Source of the DNA: a virus
Virus record (IMG/VR): IMGVR_UViG_3300048924_000148
Span: 1 to 31,836 of that record
Length of the DNA stretch: 31,836 nucleotides
Strand: one strand, 5' to 3'
Numbering within the stretch: position 1 is the first letter of the stretch; each line of letters starts with the position of its first letter. The notes under the pieces were generated by a model. That model did not search any database, was not told the DNA's origin, and saw only the letters and a list, made by a program, of their open reading frames with translations. The position numbers and the translations under genes were made by a program. Below, piece after piece: positions 4,329 to 31,836 of the stretch.

Positions 4329-6089
4329 TTAAATCCATTTTATGAAATCTTCCATTTCATGATAGTTTTTGATCGTGTTTCTTACATCTAGGCTATCATC
4401 ACTTAAGCACTCTAAAAGACTATCCCACTCTGTTTGTTTTTTGCCAAACCCATATACTTGCTCGATATCACCTAACCTCCAAATGTAAACTCCCTCATTT
4501 TTTAATTTCTGATGGATATTGTGGATGTGTTGGAGGATATCATCGTGATTGCATAGTTTGATAAAGTCTTTGCTCGAGCTTCCCTTAAGTGAGTCAATTG
4601 ACGTTATAGGAGTATTTAGTGTTAAAGAACCATTATTTATCGACTGATCAATGGCAGTAAGCAAATCATCACACTCGGATTTAAGGGACTCTGTGTGCGT
4701 GGTCGTCAAGAGAATAGACAGAAAATCACAATCAGCTAAGATTCTTGTTTTAATGCCAATTGAATTGATAACATTTGCCATTTTTAAAAGGCTTCCTTTT
4801 CCATCAACTGCAACAATACATGTTTTAGTTGGATTTAGTTCGGTGCCTTTGATTTTTTTGTATAATGCATATAAGACATTGGTTTCAGTTTTTCCTTCAA
4901 CTAATAACACTTCCTCTGAAAATAAGAAATATGATGAGTTAGATAAACTGAACGCTGAGTGTAATTGTGGTGATGACTCTTTGTATAGTTCTTCAATTTT
5001 ATCAGAGATGGTTTTTCTCGCAATTGTACCATTGGAGTCTTTATAAACTTGTATTGCATTTGATGCATGCTTTGCAGAAAGCATACTTGCGGAATGTGTT
5101 GATATGATAACTTGATAGCCATTTTCGCTTAATGTAATGAGCGACTCTCTGACCGAATTAATAGCTGACGGATGTAAGTATAGCTCTGGTTCATCGATAA
5201 ATATTAATGTGTTTGATTTTTTAGTATCTTCGCTGTTTTTTTTAATCTCTGCCAGATATTGGATTAGAGCCATTTGAATTGAACGCTGGGTTCCATGTCC
5301 GAAACGGCTTATATCACGCATCACAGAACTATCTTCACGTGATTCAAAAACTTTCAAAGTGCCAGATTTGAATATGTCATCAAGAGTAGGGGTGGGGAAA
5401 TGAATTTTTACACTTACATCTGGGAAAAACTGATTTACCTTTTCATTAACTCCTGTGTCAATCTTGTTTAATCCATCTAAGCGACTTTCTCCATCGTGGG
5501 AGAGGTACTTACCTATTTCCGAAATGTTTTGAGAGAATTTCTTCTCATGCTCTTTCTTTATTTCTGAAACTATTGCTAATAATATTTTTCCTATGGTAGT
5601 TGAGGTTTTGTATTTTGTTGCATCTTCAACGGCATCAGACATTGCAGGTATGTGTATTGGTTCAGGGAATATGTTGGATATTGCACCATCAATACCTCCA
5701 GGGTTTTTCTTCCAATTTGCACCATCAAATACATCAAGCGTTTTCTTTATTTTTCCTTTATCTGCATCAAATTCTTGCGTTCTTGAAAATGTTAAAGTTT
5801 CATGGATAATAAAGGGGGCGATCTTCTGTTGATTTTCTTCAGATAGTAGAGTCAATGTATCTTCTGTTATACCTTCGATGACCCCCGTAACTGATACAGG
5901 TTGTTGAGGGTCATACATATCATCCTCAGAAATGGTAGCGCCATCCAAGAGCCATTTAATTGCTAGAATAATATTTGATTTACCTGCGTTATTATATCCA
6001 ACTAGTGCAGTAAAAGGTCTTAGGATAGCTGTTGTTGATTTGCAGGATCTAAAATTGTTGATAGATACTGATTTAAGGCGAACAGTCAT
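4329..6089 (-). CDS. old: OLD-family ATPase/TOPRIM nuclease (phage exclusion)
   Basis: I chose ATG 6089 because AGGA lies 8 bases upstream and the 586-residue product then equals P2 Old in length and begins MTVRLKSVSI, as P2 Old does. Domains: an ABC-type ATPase with Walker A GYNNAGKSN (31-39), Walker B TLIFIDEPE (294-302) and H-loop STH (330-332); then a TOPRIM nuclease domain with VEGK (E398) and DCD (D453, D455). In P2, Old excludes phage lambda and kills recBC mutant hosts. It sits between A and cos as in P2, but tin and orf91 are missing. It is AT-rich relative to the structural genes, as expected for a lysogenic-conversion gene with its own promoter. Confidence 0.95.
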   Translation of the reverse strand: MTVRLKSVSINNFRSCKSTTAILRPFTALVGYNNAGKSNIILAIKWLLDGATISEDDMYDPQQPVSVTGVIEGITEDTLTLLSEENQQKIAPFIIHETLTFSRTQEFDADKGKIKKTLDVFDGANWKKNPGGIDGAISNIFPEPIHIPAMSDAVEDATKYKTSTTIGKILLAIVSEIKKEHEKKFSQNISEIGKYLSHDGESRLDGLNKIDTGVNEKVNQFFPDVSVKIHFPTPTLDDIFKSGTLKVFESREDSSVMRDISRFGHGTQRSIQMALIQYLAEIKKNSEDTKKSNTLIFIDEPELYLHPSAINSVRESLITLSENGYQVIISTHSASMLSAKHASNAIQVYKDSNGTIARKTISDKIEELYKESSPQLHSAFSLSNSSYFLFSEEVLLVEGKTETNVLYALYKKIKGTELNPTKTCIVAVDGKGSLLKMANVINSIGIKTRILADCDFLSILLTTTHTESLKSECDDLLTAIDQSINNGSLTLNTPITSIDSLKGSSSKDFIKLCNHDDILQHIHNIHQKLKNEGVYIWRLGDIEQVYGFGKKQTEWDSLLECLSDDSLDVRNTIKNYHEMEDFIKWI

Positions 6090-6291
6090 TTTTATTTCCT
6101 TTTGTTTTATATCCAGAGTGAAAATGGTGTGGCAGTGAGTTTTTTTATTTATGTGTTTTTTACAACTTTGAATGTTTGCATGCAAGGGTGCATGAATTTG
6201 CATCCAAGAAAAGTGTGATCTGAACTCAACATTTGCCATTATTGATATGCTTTTGGCGATACATGCAACTGCATTAAAACCGACTCATTAA

Positions 6292-14272: not shown

Positions 14273-14702
14273 TGCCGTACCGCAGCTAAAAACAAATCCC
14301 GAAATGATGCGCATCTTTGCCGATGAGGGGAATATCGATGCGCGGCTCGCGGCCTCACTGTCGCACGAAAAGATTTACACCCTGAATGTGATCGTCTGTG
14401 ATTTTGTCGGCGACCCCGATTTGATTTTCGTGCCGGTGGCCGCGTGGTTGCGTGAGAATCAGCCGGATATCTGCACCACGGATGAGGGACGCAAAAAGGG
14501 CTATCGATTCCAGATGGATTTAAACGACGGTGACAGTGTTGATATCAGTATCAGCCTGCAGCTCACCGAGCGCACGCTCGTCAGGGATGAAAACGGCGCG
14601 CTTCACGTCAGCTATGCGCCTGAGCCGCCTTTGCCCGAACCGGTGACGCGTCCGACCGAGTTGTATATCAATGGCGAGCTGGTGAGCAAATGGGATGAAT
14701 GA
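14235..14702 (+). CDS. R: Tail completion protein gpR
   Basis: ATG 14235, with AGGA 8 bases upstream, gives 155 residues, the P2 gpR length; the in-frame TTG just before is less likely. The pattern SLRQALIDAVPQLKTNPEMMRIFADEGNI...YTLNVIVCDFVGDPD.IFVPVAAWLRENQPD is that of the family. gpR acts with gpS in completing the tail and joining it to the head. It overlaps lysC upstream and S downstream by 8 bases. Confidence 0.95.
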   Translation: MKKAQSLRQALIDAVPQLKTNPEMMRIFADEGNIDARLAASLSHEKIYTLNVIVCDFVGDPDLIFVPVAAWLRENQPDICTTDEGRKKGYRFQMDLNDGDSVDISISLQLTERTLVRDENGALHVSYAPEPPLPEPVTRPTELYINGELVSKWDE

Positions 14703-15165
14703 GTTAAAGCCCTTTGACGACCAACTCGCCGGGCTGATTGCGGCGATGTCACCGGCGGGGCGGCGAAAGCTCGCCGCTGAGATTGCGAAGGAACTACGCA
14801 GATCGCAACAGCAGCGTATCAAGCAGCAAAAAGCACCAGATGGTACGCCGTATCAGGCCAGAAAGCGCCAGCCGCTCAGGTCAAAGTCGGGACGAATCAA
14901 GCATGCGATGTTTCAGAAGTTGCGTACGGCTCGTTATATGAAAGCCAGTGGCCGAAGTGATGCTGCTGTGGTCGAGTTTACCGGTAAGGTGCAGCGTATC
15001 GCGCAGATTCATCAGTATGGTCTTAAAGATCGGCCAAATGCGCATAGTATGGATATGCAATACCCTGAGCGACATTTGCTTGGATTCAGTAATCCAGATA
15101 AACAGCTTATAGAGATGTTGCTACTCAAGAGTCTAACTGCGAGTGATTTTGTAGACGTTAGTTAA
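14695..15165 (+). CDS. S: Tail completion protein gpS
   Basis: A 156-residue protein (P2 gpS 150), overlapping R. It starts MNELKPFDDQLAGLIAAMSPAGRRKLAAEIAKELRRSQQQRI, continues with the basic APDGTPYQARK and has RIAQIHQYGLKDRPN, common in phage virion morphogenesis proteins of this family. It helps finish the tail. It is the last gene of the O operon. Its final 60 codons are noticeably more AT-rich than the start, where the cargo insertion begins. Confidence 0.95.
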   Translation: MNELKPFDDQLAGLIAAMSPAGRRKLAAEIAKELRRSQQQRIKQQKAPDGTPYQARKRQPLRSKSGRIKHAMFQKLRTARYMKASGRSDAAVVEFTGKVQRIAQIHQYGLKDRPNAHSMDMQYPERHLLGFSNPDKQLIEMLLLKSLTASDFVDVS

Positions 15166-15184: not shown

Positions 15185-15210
15185 GGGAACCATGAGTGTT
15201 TCATGGTCCC
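15185..15210. terminator. Terminator after S / convergent cargo operon
   Basis: GGGAACCATGA and TCATGGTCCC form a stem of about 10 bp with one bulged base and a 5-base loop. T-rich sequence follows on the plus strand (from 15211), and A-rich sequence precedes it (15178-15184). It probably ends the O-S operon and may serve the convergent ATPase-HNH operon, which ends at 15294. Confidence 0.65.
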
Positions 15211-15293: not shown

Positions 15294-16178
15294 TTATGGG
15301 GATGTTAAGAAGTTCCTATCTATGATTATCGTGTATGCTCTTTGAAAGTTTTCACGGTCCGAAATGATTGAGTTTAGAACCACTCCTCGCCATGAGAATT
15401 TATTTTCATCTTCAAGCTCTTCTTGCAAAAATAACAACACCAACTGCTCGTCAGTTAAGCGATTAATTCTCCGTCTGACTTTGTTTATCCAGTACTTGAA
15501 TTCTTCCCTGATAATTAACCCATTTCTACTCGCTATATCCATTTTATTTATATGCCAATTTACAATGCTTTTAGTGTTGTCATCTATACTAGGGTGGGCT
15601 TGTAGATTCAAAACATAAAAATAGGTGTTTGAAAATAATTCCAATCTAACGAAGTACAGCTCCATCTCTGAACCGTTTTTAAAATGCTCGTCGAAGAAAG
15701 GGTGGAGAAATCGCTCTGTCGGGGAATCTATTCTCTTGTTAAGTTTTTTGAAATTACAATCCCCGCATGAAGGGACTAAATTCCAAACATTGAGTGATAG
15801 CTCGCAAAATGCATCTTTATCAAAGTAATGGTCCAAGGTAGAACAGACACCCTGACCACAGTAAGGGCATTTAATATTTTTATAAAGATCACGCATATCT
15901 GAAATGTATGAGCATTCCTGATAATTTTTGCTTGAATTATAGAGGTTAATTAAAGATTCTCTTACTGTTGAGTAATTAATAGTGCTAACTGAATAATTAT
16001 TAGTGGCTTCGAATTCTAAACTTAATCTCTCGTTATCCAGTATAAATTTTCGCCAGTTATTGGCGTTATTTAGAAATGCTCTTAAATTACCTCGTCTGTT
16101 GCCCTTAACTTTTTCTAATAATGTTTTGATTGTTGTGCCATTGAGTAAGATTGTTTCCGCTGGTGTTTTAATTTTCAT
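15294..16178 (-). CDS. HNH endonuclease, Septu PtuB-like partner of the adjacent ATPase
   Basis: A 294-residue protein with an HNH zinc-type core: C104-P-Y-C107, then TLDHYFDKDAF (D116, H117 catalytic region), N133 in NVWNLVPSC and C138/C141 in SCGDCNFKK. The layout CPYCG..TLDHY..K..F....NLVP.C..CN.KK is typical of HNH nucleases paired with ABC-type ATPases, such as PtuB of Septu. It should cut DNA or RNA when released or activated by the ATPase; the target is unknown. Helical regions flank the core. Its start overlaps the ATPase end by 11 bases, so the two are co-translated. The gene is strongly AT-rich and opposed to all neighbouring late genes, as expected for acquired cargo. Confidence 0.85.
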   Translation of the reverse strand: MKIKTPAETILLNGTTIKTLLEKVKGNRRGNLRAFLNNANNWRKFILDNERLSLEFEATNNYSVSTINYSTVRESLINLYNSSKNYQECSYISDMRDLYKNIKCPYCGQGVCSTLDHYFDKDAFCELSLNVWNLVPSCGDCNFKKLNKRIDSPTERFLHPFFDEHFKNGSEMELYFVRLELFSNTYFYVLNLQAHPSIDDNTKSIVNWHINKMDIASRNGLIIREEFKYWINKVRRRINRLTDEQLVLLFLQEELEDENKFSWRGVVLNSIISDRENFQRAYTIIIDRNFLTSP

Positions 16179-17790
16179 TTATTCTGTCCGCAATTGATAA
16201 GATGATTTCGCGGTTGAATTCGTTGCCCAATGAATTTATTAGCTCTTTTTTGCTTTTGTATTTATTTGCAATTTCGCGTAGTCTTGAGTCAAAAATACTA
16301 CTTTCTTCTTTGGTGTTGAATATATAGTTGCTCATGATTTGTAAGTTGCAAGAATAACTCTCAATTTCTGGGTTGTATAAAATAATTTCATTTGAGCCAT
16401 GAGGCTTTTCAAAAACAGTTACACCGACTCGTGGTATTTCCCGTGCTAAATGTAGTGAGTGGGTTGCTATTATGCATATTGAGTTTGTGTCTAATAAACA
16501 TTGAGTTAAAATTTTCATCGCTTGAGAGATGAAGTTAGGGTGTAAAAAATTTTCTAATTCATCGATGAAGATAAGGCTATTATTCTGGATTGATGTAAGA
16601 ATGCACGAAATTATCAATATGAAATTTTCTTGGCCAGAGCTTAATTTTACCCTTTCACCATTTTTTATTAAAAATGCGCTAGAAACACTCGGCAAAATAT
16701 CTTCATTAAGTTCGTATTGATACTTCGCCATGCTTGATAATTCATTCAGAGATTTGAATGACGAGTAGGTTCCATCTAAACCTACAATTGAGCAATTAAT
16801 ATTTTCCTTAATTATAGAGTCTAATATGCTTAGTGCGTTAAAGGGTAGTTCTTCTGTAACTTCGCGCCTAATCATCTCATTAATCAGGCTTGTTAAATCA
16901 AAGGGCTCAACCCCTTCACTTATGCTATATTTTTTACTACGCAAAGTAGAAAAATACTCGTAATCATCAAAATGAGACTCTGAATTCCTATTGCGTAGTC
17001 TATGAAGTGCTTTGCTTGTGGCAGGGTAGCTATCTTTAACTGTATTAGAAATCATTATTATTTTGTTAATGTTTTCTGATAGTTTTATATTTCCGCCTCT
17101 TAAATAGCACTCTATTATTTGTTCGATGCTGTAACTTTTTCCCGCGCCATTCTTACCAATAAATATATTTATTGGCATTCTCCCTATGATGTCATGGACA
17201 AATTTTAATTTTAATTTTAATTTTTTGTCATTTTCTATACTTGGTAGGTTAATGAAAAGATCATCAAGAGAAGTGCTTTTCACATAGTCTTTATTGTTTT
17301 TTGAAAAAAGAAAATTAACGCCTTTAAAAAATGCGTACCTGCTCCTGTTATGTGATAAAAGATAATCTTTCGCTAAGCCACTAACATTATTGTTAATTCC
17401 TTTTTTTTCGATTACACCTAAATCAAATAATTGGGTTAATAAGTTTTTCGCATATGATTTAGTGTAATTGGCAGCAAGTTTATAATATGATTCATCTGAA
17501 ACTACTTGACTGCATATGGATAGGTTGTTTTTTTTTGATATTTGGGTGCCCAATAACTTATCGTAATTGATTTTGAAGTGTTCCAGTGTTTCATTGTCTA
17601 AAAAAACACGAGTGAAATCATCGTAATAATCAATGTGATATTTGGTGGCAATTGCAAAATCACAAAGATACACTCTGTGATCCTGTTCGCCTTTTAAAAT
17701 TAAAAACCTTCCGGTAATCTTATTTTCATTACTGTCTTGATTGTGTCTGAAACTATCATGAAATAAGTTTAGATTAGTTAGATATAACAC
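16168..17790 (-). CDS. ABC-type (SMC/Rad50-like) ATPase of a two-gene defence-like operon
   Basis: The 540-residue protein starts at GTG 17790 with GGAGG ideally spaced upstream. ATPase motifs: Walker A IGKNGAGKS (211-219), ABC signature LSSGQE (383-388), Walker B NSLIFIDELE (404-412) and H-loop ATHS (442-445). Known PtuA-type ATPases have Walker A near the N-terminus; here about 200 residues precede it, including a possible winged-helix stretch (about 100-145, AKNLLTQLFDLGVIEKKGI). The partner HNH nuclease follows with an 11-base overlap. By analogy to Septu, the ATPase would sense infection or nucleotide change and gate the nuclease. That role is inference. No TOPRIM domain is seen, which distinguishes it from Old. 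Confidence 0.85.
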   Translation of the reverse strand: MLYLTNLNLFHDSFRHNQDSNENKITGRFLILKGEQDHRVYLCDFAIATKYHIDYYDDFTRVFLDNETLEHFKINYDKLLGTQISKKNNLSICSQVVSDESYYKLAANYTKSYAKNLLTQLFDLGVIEKKGINNNVSGLAKDYLLSHNRSRYAFFKGVNFLFSKNNKDYVKSTSLDDLFINLPSIENDKKLKLKLKFVHDIIGRMPINIFIGKNGAGKSYSIEQIIECYLRGGNIKLSENINKIIMISNTVKDSYPATSKALHRLRNRNSESHFDDYEYFSTLRSKKYSISEGVEPFDLTSLINEMIRREVTEELPFNALSILDSIIKENINCSIVGLDGTYSSFKSLNELSSMAKYQYELNEDILPSVSSAFLIKNGERVKLSSGQENFILIISCILTSIQNNSLIFIDELENFLHPNFISQAMKILTQCLLDTNSICIIATHSLHLAREIPRVGVTVFEKPHGSNEIILYNPEIESYSCNLQIMSNYIFNTKEESSIFDSRLREIANKYKSKKELINSLGNEFNREIILSIADRINEN

Positions 17791-18129
17791 AAAACCTCCA
17801 GTTAAATTAAGTGCCTACAATAGATGAGATCAAGAAGAAGTGAAGGGATTATTATAAGAAAAATTAAATCTTCAGGCTTATTCATACCTCATTTTAAGTT
17901 GCCATGGCTTTCAAATGCAACCTCTGCCTGATGAATCATCCTTTAAAAGATTTTGTTTGGGTGGAAAACGTACAGTGGAGCGGTTGCGTGATGTTATAAC
18001 GAGCAACACTGATGGTGCAATATTAAACATTCAAATATTAAATTTTGCTAGAAGTCCTTCAGGAAATTGGGCCACGCCCACAGAGCAAAGATAGTTATTG
18101 TGCTGTATGAGTCGATTTATCTTTAAGCT
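17791..18129. other. Stretch between the cargo operon and gene V with no convincing gene
   Basis: About 340 AT-rich bases hold the divergent leader of the ATPase gene. Its start is at 17790 and GGAGG lies at about 17795-17799. The only plus-strand reading frame of note is 17915-18094 (59 codons, ATG start, no ribosome binding site), which contains GGKRTVERLRDVITSN. It is open upstream for a further 19 codons without a start. It may be a remnant of a gene displaced by the insertion, and is not called as a gene. Confidence 0.5.
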
Positions 18130-18195: not shown

Positions 18196-18837
18196 ATGAA
18201 TAATCTCACTTCTCTGCAGGATTTCGCACGCGCGATCCGCAACCTTATCCGCACCGGCATCGTGACCGATGTCAACCCCGTCGAGGGTCTTTGTCGTGTC
18301 CAGACCGGCGGGATGGAAACCACGTGGCTAAACTGGCTGACCTCTCGCGCCGGTCGCTCGCGTGTGTGGTGGGCTCCTTCTGTTGGCGAGCAGGTGCTGA
18401 TTCTTGCCATCGGTGGCGAGCTCGACACCGCGTTTGTGCTGCCCTCCATTTTCTCTGATGACAATCCCGCGCCGTCTGCCTCGCCTGATGCGCTTCACAT
18501 AGCCTTTCCCGACGGGGCGGTCATCGAGTACGAACCCGACAGCGGGGCGCTCACCGTGTCCGGTATCAAAACAGCCGACGTCACCGCGTCGGATTCCATT
18601 ACCGCCACCGTGCCGGTGGTGCTGGTCAAAGCTGAAACCCGCATCACCCTCGATACACCCGAGGTGGTCTGTACCAACAAGCTCATCACCGGCTCACTTG
18701 AAGTGCAGAAGGGCGGAACGATGAAGGGCGATATCACGCACAGCGGCGGGAAATTTATCTCTAACGGCGTGCAGGCGGATGACCACGCACATGGCAATGT
18801 GCAGAGCGGCGGGAGCTGGACGAAGGAGACCAAATGA
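18196..18837 (+). CDS. V: Baseplate spike / tail puncturing protein gpV
   Basis: A 213-residue protein (P2 gpV 211). N-terminal OB-like domain with CRVQTGGM and SRAGRSRVWWAPSVGEQVLILAIGGELDTAFVLP, then a beta-helical region with ITLDTPEVVCTNKLITGSLEVQKGGTMKGDI. Near the C-terminus, H197-A-H199 is the HxH motif that binds iron at the spike tip in P2. It forms the trimeric needle that pierces the outer membrane. It is the first gene of the V-W-J-I-H-G operon. No ribosome binding site is evident upstream. Confidence 0.96.
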   Translation: MNNLTSLQDFARAIRNLIRTGIVTDVNPVEGLCRVQTGGMETTWLNWLTSRAGRSRVWWAPSVGEQVLILAIGGELDTAFVLPSIFSDDNPAPSASPDALHIAFPDGAVIEYEPDSGALTVSGIKTADVTASDSITATVPVVLVKAETRITLDTPEVVCTNKLITGSLEVQKGGTMKGDITHSGGKFISNGVQADDHAHGNVQSGGSWTKETK

Positions 18838-29852: not shown

Positions 29853-29864
29853 AAATTGAAAAAA

Positions 29865-29877
29865 GCCAAAAATTGGC
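29865..29877 (+). other. Short hairpin after ogr
   Basis: GCCAA-AAA-TTGGC, a perfect 5-bp stem 13 bases after the ogr stop. It is too weak for a confident terminator. It begins a 226-base AT-rich spacer (29853-30078) in which I see no gene apart from the leader of the next one. Confidence 0.35.
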
Positions 29878-30078
29878 GAAACTTCATTTACAAAACTAAT
29901 GTTCTTCATATAATTTTCATAATTCACATCAACTAGTTGATTTTAATGTTGTTTAAGGAAAAGATACAGGTTGGGTAAAGTTCTTAAGATGCATCGATTT
30001 TCTGTATAAAAGCATTCCATTTAATATATAAATAGTTTAATGCTAGAGGTTTCTAAAATTTAATACAGGTGGTAAGTA

Positions 30079-30804
30079 ATGGAAATAATACAGCAGGCAA
30101 TAAAAAAACTTGCTAACTCTATGAGGATGTATGGAGAAGTATGTTTTGATTTTCAAAGGCTTGTGAAAATAGATAAAGAGGAGGCAATAGATAATCTCGA
30201 TCGTGCATTTGAGGCGAAGTTGGAAGCATTTCATAGTCTGTATGATGTAACGAAGAATGATATTGATTATTTTGCTAATGGTGATACGGCTGCTTTAATA
30301 TTAATGCGTAATGCTATTCATCATCGCGACCATCTTCTGTTCAAAAGCTGGAATCAGGTAATGGCGCTAGATGATGGATATAAAAATCATTATGGTGCAG
30401 AGTTTCTTTTGGTGGCATTCGAGATTCTTGGTTCTCCCCCTAGGCAAAAATATTATTATAAGCTCGAAGATTTCTATCTAAGAATTGATGAAAAGTTAGA
30501 CTCACCTTATCTTGTGCAGCGAATGAAAAATGCAAGTCGCGAAAAAATGATTTCCCAATTTGATACTGAATTAAATTTCGCTGAAGTCAAGAGTTATGCG
30601 TCGCAAGAACGTTACCCTGATAATCAAATATATATAAATGTCATTCCAATTTTTGTATCTGCAGTATGCCGCGTGTTTACCGCTTTAAGGGGAAATGGGG
30701 TGGATTTTGTAGGCTTTGATGCTAATGCATATAAAGAGCCTTTTACCAACGAGTTGTCTGTTGATTTTTCGAAGATAATTTATACTCCATTGCGTATAAC
30801 TTAA
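30079..30804 (+). CDS. Unknown cargo protein with an RNxxxH (HEPN-like) motif
   Basis: A 241-residue protein with AGGTGG 8 bases before its ATG. I do not recognise its family. It is strongly helical through about residue 130, then mixed. It contains RNAIHH (R77-N78...H82) in ILMRNAIHHRDHLLFKSW, which matches the RNxxxH active-site motif of HEPN ribonucleases, and the surrounding helices suit that fold. HEPN proteins are common RNA-cleaving effectors in phage defence and toxin-antitoxin systems, so an effector role is plausible, but the short motif alone can occur by chance. It is AT-rich and lies between ogr and the host, a usual place for lysogenic conversion genes. It has its own terminator and no visible partner on the same strand. 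Confidence 0.7.
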   Translation: MEIIQQAIKKLANSMRMYGEVCFDFQRLVKIDKEEAIDNLDRAFEAKLEAFHSLYDVTKNDIDYFANGDTAALILMRNAIHHRDHLLFKSWNQVMALDDGYKNHYGAEFLLVAFEILGSPPRQKYYYKLEDFYLRIDEKLDSPYLVQRMKNASREKMISQFDTELNFAEVKSYASQERYPDNQIYINVIPIFVSAVCRVFTALRGNGVDFVGFDANAYKEPFTNELSVDFSKIIYTPLRIT

Positions 30805-30812
30805 ATTACTGA

Positions 30813-30851
30813 GGCAGGTAGTGATATGTAAATGCTAGCCTGCCATTTTTT
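30813..30851 (+). terminator. Terminator of the RNxxxH gene
   Basis: GGCAGG (30813-30818) pairs with CCTGCC (30839-30844), extended by TAG/CTA across a bulged G. A T-tract follows at 30846-30851. It lies nine bases after the stop codon of the preceding gene. Confidence 0.75.
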
Positions 30852-30934
30852 GATTCCACCAGATTGCATTACTTAAATGTGGGATCTGTAGGGAATGATT
30901 AATTTTTAATAAATTAACAATTCATTGATTAATT

Positions 30935-31423
30935 CTATAAGGATTTTTTTATGATGTTTGATAAAAAAGCCATCAACTCATTGAGTTTACTATAATCAAC
31001 TTTTGACTCAAAATATTGATAATGATTGCCTGACATAAATGCCAAATGCATTTTTTCTGTTTCAATGGCTGTCGTAATTTTTAGTGCTTCATATTTATCT
31101 ATAAATTCAATGCCTTCCTTTTTGGTTAGGAAAAGACATATCTGGTATGCTTTTCTATCACTAGAAGTATAATTCTTAAGCGCAACCTCTAAAATAATGG
31201 AAGGATCATATTGTGAATGGTTGCTATTATTTGAACTGGTGACGCTATTAAATTTCTCAAGAAAATCATCAATTCTCAATAATAACTGCTCTCTACGCCA
31301 CTCGTTCATTGATTTATTTCTATTGTCGCGTGCAATGAACCAATTAACACATGCAGTGACTGCAACACCCAGAAGCGATCCACATACAGCCAAAAGCGCA
31401 ACATTTATAGTAGTCAACTCCAT
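30935..31423 (-). CDS. Membrane-anchored protein of unknown function
   Basis: ATG 31423, with GGAGGG ideally spaced upstream, gives 162 residues. An in-frame start four codons earlier is less likely. One hydrophobic segment (about 5-30, INVALLAVCGSLLGVAVTACVNWFIA) is followed by a charged helical region (RDNRNKSMNEWRREQLLLRIDDFLEKF) and a soluble domain of about 110 residues. I do not recognise the family. It is AT-rich and convergent with the RNxxxH gene. Possible roles are superinfection exclusion at the membrane or an effector with a membrane anchor, but nothing in the sequence decides this. Confidence 0.7.
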   Translation of the reverse strand: MELTTINVALLAVCGSLLGVAVTACVNWFIARDNRNKSMNEWRREQLLLRIDDFLEKFNSVTSSNNSNHSQYDPSIILEVALKNYTSSDRKAYQICLFLTKKEGIEFIDKYEALKITTAIETEKMHLAFMSGNHYQYFESKVDYSKLNELMAFLSNIIKKSL

Positions 31424-31594
31424 AAACCCTCCCATGTCATTAGTTTTTCTAAATTACAGATTAATAAAGGTAAAACAATCTTATAGAGATTACATTTCCT
31501 CAAGTATCATTCATGTGTCAAATTCATACTAAAAATACATAAAGGCTTTAGCATAAAATGTTAAATAACAGATGAGTAAATTTTAATGAAAGGA

Positions 31595-31668
31595 GCCCTT
31601 AAAAAAAGGGCCTCTCATATCGATGTGGTCAACATGTGGACGTGACCTGAAATAAATCCTTTTATTTC
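31595..31668. repeat. Inverted repeats in the presumed attR / prophage-host junction
   Basis: GCCCTT/AAGGGC (31595-31611) and the perfect 9-bp TGAAATAAA/TTTATTTCA (31648-31668, 3-base loop) lie in the gene-free interval between the last cargo gene and yciI. GGTCA...TGACC (31627-31647) lies between them. They could be terminators or integrase/Cox-arm sites; the attachment core cannot be found without attL. The gene-free interval is 31424-31719. Confidence 0.4.
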
Positions 31669-31719: not shown

Positions 31720-31836
31720 TCAAAACACTTTCTTGAACGGTCTGACGGTCACTTTCTCATAAACCCCTGCCGCGACGTACGGGTCTGCTTCGGCCCAGGA
31801 CTGTGCAGCTTCCAGCGATTCAAACTCCGCAATGAC
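31720..31836 (-). CDS. yciI: YciI, C-terminal part (host gene)
   Basis: On the minus strand, 38 codons open at the window edge and end at TGA (31720-31722). The residues [38 protein letters not shown] match the C-terminus of enterobacterial YciI with few changes. YciI is a small dimeric YCII-domain protein of uncertain function. Its GC content and codon use return to the host level after the AT-rich cargo. It marks the host side of the insertion. The N-terminal 60 or so residues lie outside the window. Confidence 0.93.

Follow-up and report, generated by a model that had tools for sequence, protein, structure and literature searches.

Genomic setting of the operon

What does a two-gene operon do inside the late-gene cluster of a P2-like prophage, and is it a defense system of the Septu kind or a type of its own? 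The window, which is the whole stretch of DNA analyzed here (a virus record of 31,836 bases), is a P2-like prophage. The late genes follow the order typical of P2-like phages (Q-P-O-N-M-L...R-S, V-W-J-I-H-G, FI-FII...D, ogr), with the gene letters assigned from order and similarity to P2. Among phage records, Enterobacter phage ENT4 comes nearest in the left arm (85% identity over 96% of the query length). The 31,836-base record showed no integrase gene.

The operon is located on the minus strand between the tail completion gene S and the baseplate gene V, at positions 15294-17790 (Table 1). The similarity to relatives ends at 15113 and restarts at 18129, which indicates that about 3 kb is cargo. 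An earlier note on this DNA had described the operon as AT-rich and as bounded by terminator-like hairpins. The first description is confirmed by a GC content of 0.327 (33%) versus 0.577-0.579 (58%) in the flanking late genes. The second applies to one side only. A single hairpin was found in total outside the genes, on the S side, where it occupies the site of the O-operon terminator in the P2 annotation; the V side showed none.

Table 1 Coordinates of the features in the window and of the compared lambda locus.
Feature	Position	Strand	Basis or remark
Tail completion gene S, left flank	14695..15165	+	similarity to relatives with different or no cargo stops at <=15113
Terminator-like hairpin, 10 pairs	15186..15210	.	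between S and the operon 3' end
HNH nuclease, 294 aa, PDC-M01B / PtuB-like / lambda Ea31-like	15294..16178	-	PADLOC, PHROG, fold comparison
ABC-type ATPase, 540 aa, PDC-M01A / PtuA-like / lambda Ea59-like	16168..17790	-	PADLOC, PHROG, fold search
N-terminal domain of the ATPase, residues 1-190	17221..17790	-	common to the whole family at low identity; model of low confidence
Shine-Dalgarno region of the ATPase gene, ACTGGAGGTTTT before GTG	17791..17803	-	sequence
Baseplate gene V, right flank	18196..18837	+	similarity to relatives restarts at 18129
Unannotated gene, 241 aa	30079-30804	+	cargo block after ogr
Unannotated gene, 166 aa	30935-31435	-	cargo block after ogr
Phage lambda ea59-ea31	L013 1918-4379		ATPase-HNH operon of the PDC-M01 / Septu-like type, judged from profiles and gene order

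The contents of the S-V gap differ among P2-like relatives, and the earlier description of a cargo locus is borne out in that the gap is a variable cargo slot. Close P2-like relatives lack the operon and have other genes, or nothing, in the slot. In ENT4, the slot contains a PIN-domain gene (PIN_12; L014 15271-16335, minus strand), possibly an unrecognized moron. P2 has orf30 at this place, P24A7b has an unnamed gene that matches it in size and position, and another relative has a DUF4062 gene. Genes without known function were found in the slots of E. coli, Klebsiella, and Yersinia phages, and nothing of size was found in five other relatives. When four other S-V cargo genes were tested, 0 of 4 matched any PADLOC model. 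Therefore, the slot itself is no proof of defense, and the S-V location speaks weakly for it.

The S-V gap was also compared with two published loci. The fun locus is located between G and FI (PMC9519451), and in the P2 record fun(Z) is found there while orf30 is found between S and V; the identity of the S-V gap with the fun locus was rejected. The A-Q gap has been reported as a defense hotspot in P2-like prophages (PMC9122126). It is a different site, and in the window it holds a relative of the P2 Old exclusion protein instead (4329-6239, minus strand; PADLOC Old, 707 bits; 35% GC). If the defense reading of the operon is right, the S-V gap of P2-like prophages is one more cargo slot to mine, in addition to the two P2 hotspots already described (A-Q, carrying old/tin, and the fun locus).

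Assignment of the ATPase and the HNH nuclease

The two minus-strand genes overlap by 11 nt, and their coordinates agree with the ATPase and HNH pair proposed earlier. Both reading frames are full length. The ATPase gene starts with GTG and has a strong Shine-Dalgarno sequence (GGAGG-TTTT-GTG, with the GGAGG 4 nt ahead of the GTG), as expected from the claim that the operon has its own start with a strong ribosome binding site. All the ATPase motifs listed in the earlier note were located, namely Walker A GKNGAGKS at residues 212-219, the signature LSSGQE at 383-388, Walker B LIFIDELE at 406-413, and the H-loop THS at 443-445. The HNH motif consists of C104-x2-C107, D116-H117, N133, and C138-x2-C141-N142. 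Within the family alignments, the key motif residues of both proteins are invariant or near-invariant.

A profile search against the defense models of PADLOC, as had been suggested, was led by the candidate system PDC-M01 for both proteins. The best match of the ATPase was PDC-M01A (PDLC04238, E 9e-47; PDLC04239, E 2e-39), and the best Septu model, PtuA1 (PDLC00282, E 3.7e-24), ranked under it. The best match of the HNH protein was PDC-M01B (PDLC04270, E 5.1e-32), and no PtuB model was among the 25 best PADLOC matches. In PHROG, the ATPase matched phrog_8066 (E 7e-32), the family of lambda Ea59, and the HNH protein matched phrog_10378 (E 4.5e-20), the family of lambda Ea31; many other PHROG HNH families matched the HNH protein weakly. 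With E < 1e-30 to profile families for each of the two proteins, the assignment is more than chance. The ATPase gave no match to the NCBIfam PtuA equivalog NF041760, and the HNH protein gave none to TIGR02646, the family name given to PtuB by the PDB depositors.

On these profiles, the locus is best filed under PDC-M01, and the operon is a divergent member of an already catalogued candidate anti-phage family. The best profile match for both proteins, the gene order, the lengths, the extension before Walker A, and the layout of the HNH motif are shared with PDC-M01. The N-terminal 190-200 residues or so before Walker A are a shared trait observed here, not a rule of PADLOC. The window version differs in being a very divergent branch, sharing <=24% identity with the rest of the tree (456 columns). 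PDC-M01 is a candidate derived computationally, and the literature searched gave no experimental validation of it. A study of Bacillus cereus genomes found that part of the PDC-M01 calls coincided with calls of Septu (41 pairs; PMC11811056).

Predicted folds and the N-terminal domain

The HNH model was built with viral-contig relatives as the alignment and was moderately good (mean pLDDT 72, pTM 0.72). In the fold comparison, PtuB chains of Septu and retron I-A made up all of its ten leading PDB matches (Z 8.2-9.7 over 184-191 residues), and the first match after PtuB had a Z of 5.7 over 64 residues. The likeness to PtuB extends past the HNH motif to residues 1-275. Foldseek against the same PtuB gave weak E-values (0.07 to 0.4), and the HNH family profile matched PtuB chains weakly (E 6e-4 to 1e-2). 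The structure prediction of the ATPase, also suggested earlier, was informative for the head (good at about residues 205-230 and 385-490) and of low confidence for residues 1-190; the model was poor overall (mean pLDDT 57). PtuA chains took ranks 1-36 in Foldseek (best E 7e-10), and the fold comparison gave Z 13.4-14.2 for PtuA versus 11.5-12.5 for generic ATPases. The composition, the gene order, and the predicted fold agree with the earlier proposal that the operon resembles Septu (PtuA/PtuB), and that it would work like Septu is well supported by the models.

The comparison with Septu type I shows an ATPase and HNH pair, the PtuA head fold, the PtuB fold, and the PtuA1 match in common. However, E. 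coli PtuA lacks a large N-terminal domain, and its head is near the start of the protein. The Walker A lysine of EcB88 PtuA is at position 43 (PMC13096335), while Walker A starts at residue 212 in the window ATPase. The effectors PtuA/PtuB of retron I-A (Ec78/Eco7, Ec83) were the top structural matches for both chains. In contrast to these retrons, the window locus has no reverse transcriptase gene and no known ncRNA family, as no additional S-V gene could encode a reverse transcriptase and no Rfam match was found in the locus; NF041760 was also unmatched. The retron effector reading was considered and set aside.

The long extension was said in the earlier note to be unlike the usual PtuA and to mark, possibly, a distinct subtype. 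Against solved PtuA the extension is genuine, with residue ~173 of the ATPase model aligned to residue 1 of 8ee4 (E. coli PtuA). The subtype does not follow from it. In relatives whose Walker A motif is clear, lambda Ea59 included, it starts at 195-228, and the N-terminal regions of the relatives align weakly with the window protein (12-16% identity) around D44, L118, D123, and R151. An extension is also present in family proteins that match PADLOC PtuA1 PDLC00282 at about 600-790 bits over the full length. By these alignments, the N-terminal extension is a trait of the whole PDC-M01 / lambda Ea59 family and not peculiar to this locus, and it is therefore no ground for a new subtype. No convincing sequence match to the N-terminal domain was found in Pfam or PDB. 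The domain may sense infection or bind the partner protein.

Relatives of the operon and phage lambda ea59-ea31

The pairing of the two genes was examined in plasmid, phage, and viral-contig loci. All the ATPase relatives at E < 1e-40 to the family profile had an HNH gene directly downstream, with a gap of about -26 to +15 nt, so the pairing is indeed present in other genomes. Among the weaker ATPase matches (E 1e-16 to 1e-30), 2 of 7 separate loci were paired with an HNH gene. This indicates that strict pairing goes with membership in the PDC-M01 / Ea59 family. The closest relative found was in E. coli ST2350, with 37% (ATPase) and 42% (HNH) identity. It is located in an island with kwaA/kwaB (Kiwa), and its ATPase gene is broken. 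The operon type was also found on plasmids close to restriction-modification and toxin-antitoxin genes, and members of the family are common among phage and prophage contigs. Pattern scans with the window proteins and the ST2350 HNH alignment returned no close relatives in viral contigs or genome contigs. In a tree of 37 rows, the window ATPase grouped with L006, L007, and L015, which are relatives from plasmids and viruses (97/95), although the placement is unsure, and its branch was very long (5.07). Judged from this tree, the window operon is a very divergent branch of the PDC-M01 / Ea59 family.

In phage lambda, ea59 and ea31 are adjacent, overlap, and have the same order as the window operon, and Walker A of Ea59 is at residue 195. 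Ea59 and Ea31 matched phrog_8066 and phrog_10378 at 876 and 507 bits. In PADLOC, the lambda pair scored 667 bits for PDC-M01A, 611 bits for PtuA1 PDLC00282, and 375 bits for PDC-M01B. These scores indicate that lambda carries the PDC-M01 operon type and that the Septu models of PADLOC already partly cover this type. The profiles and the gene order place lambda ea59-ea31 in the operon type of the window. The two share the families, the gene order, and the gene overlap; however, the overall identity to the window proteins is about 18% (ATPase) and 21% (HNH), and the lambda pair adjoins int whereas the window pair is in a P2-like tail cluster. In the literature, ea59 is listed as an "ATP-dependent endonuclease", and neither ea59 nor ea31 is essential in lambda (PMC10695390). 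In the papers found on Ea59, the gene is regarded as dispensable for lambda, and none of them describes it as a defense gene. The connection to lambda ea59-ea31 is the most useful by-product of this analysis. If it is true, the purpose of these non-essential genes becomes testable as that of a Septu-like defense operon.

Proposed function and alternative explanations

The operon is quite likely a moron of the P2-like prophage that encodes an anti-phage system of two proteins, Septu-like and of the PDC-M01 / Ea59-Ea31 type, and it probably shields the host cell from competing phages as Septu does. The P2 Old relative in the A-Q hotspot of the same prophage supports the defense reading. By analogy to Septu, the ATPase would dimerize or oligomerize via the ABC head and hold the HNH protein, and the complex would stay quiet with ATP bound and no infection. 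A phage-derived cue, such as a nucleotide drop, a phage protein, or an altered nucleic acid, would free or activate the HNH nuclease, and the N-terminal domain would perhaps read this cue. The nuclease would then cut an essential nucleic acid, either phage DNA or, as in E. coli Septu and retron-Eco7, a host tRNA, and phage growth would be halted, possibly at the cost of the cell. Septu defense needs the Walker A/B and HNH residues of PtuA/PtuB (PMC13096335). Septu EcB88 cleaves tRNA-Tyr (PMC13096335), retron-Eco7 PtuAB depletes tRNA-Tyr (PMC11555353), another E. coli Septu PtuAB is reported to act on nicked DNA (PMC11555353), and the target of retron-Eco4 is apparently not tRNA (PMC13096335, PMC11555353). 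The targets of PtuAB vary by system. We tentatively consider, as a rather doubtful extension, that PDC-M01 / Ea59-Ea31 is a separate ATPase-HNH immunity branch, in which a family-specific N-terminal domain senses phage and licenses the HNH nuclease, the cue or the substrate of the window version being unlike that of Septu.

The pair might serve the cycle of the phage itself, for example by ATP-dependent DNA cutting in replication, recombination, or superinfection control, and not act against unrelated phages. The listing of lambda ea59 as an endonuclease and the frequency of the family in phage and prophage contigs fit such a role. However, the lambda genes are dispensable, close P2-like relatives do without the operon, and the operon type occurs on plasmids near restriction-modification and toxin-antitoxin genes and in the E. 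coli island beside Kiwa, which leaves a role in the phage's own cycle unlikely.

Homing endonucleases are commonly HNH nucleases, and the weak matches to many PHROG HNH families would suit a selfish homing-type nuclease with an ATPase helper. This explanation was set aside as highly improbable: the PtuB-like fold covers residues 1-275, the nuclease is strictly paired with an ABC ATPase, and the site shows no intron or disrupted gene, with the S and V frames at full length. It is just as improbable that the operon is a decayed or silent remnant. The broken ATPase gene of the ST2350 relative hints at decay, but in the window both frames are complete and the motifs and ribosome binding sites are intact, and the remnant reading was set aside as well.

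Other cargo in the prophage

A third AT-rich cargo block (29860-31600, 33% GC) is located after ogr and contains two unannotated genes (Table 1), for which no significant match was found in Pfam, PHROG, or PADLOC. The record end (31720-31836, minus strand) resembles the C-terminus of the host protein YciI, and the right end of the record probably takes in host chromosome.
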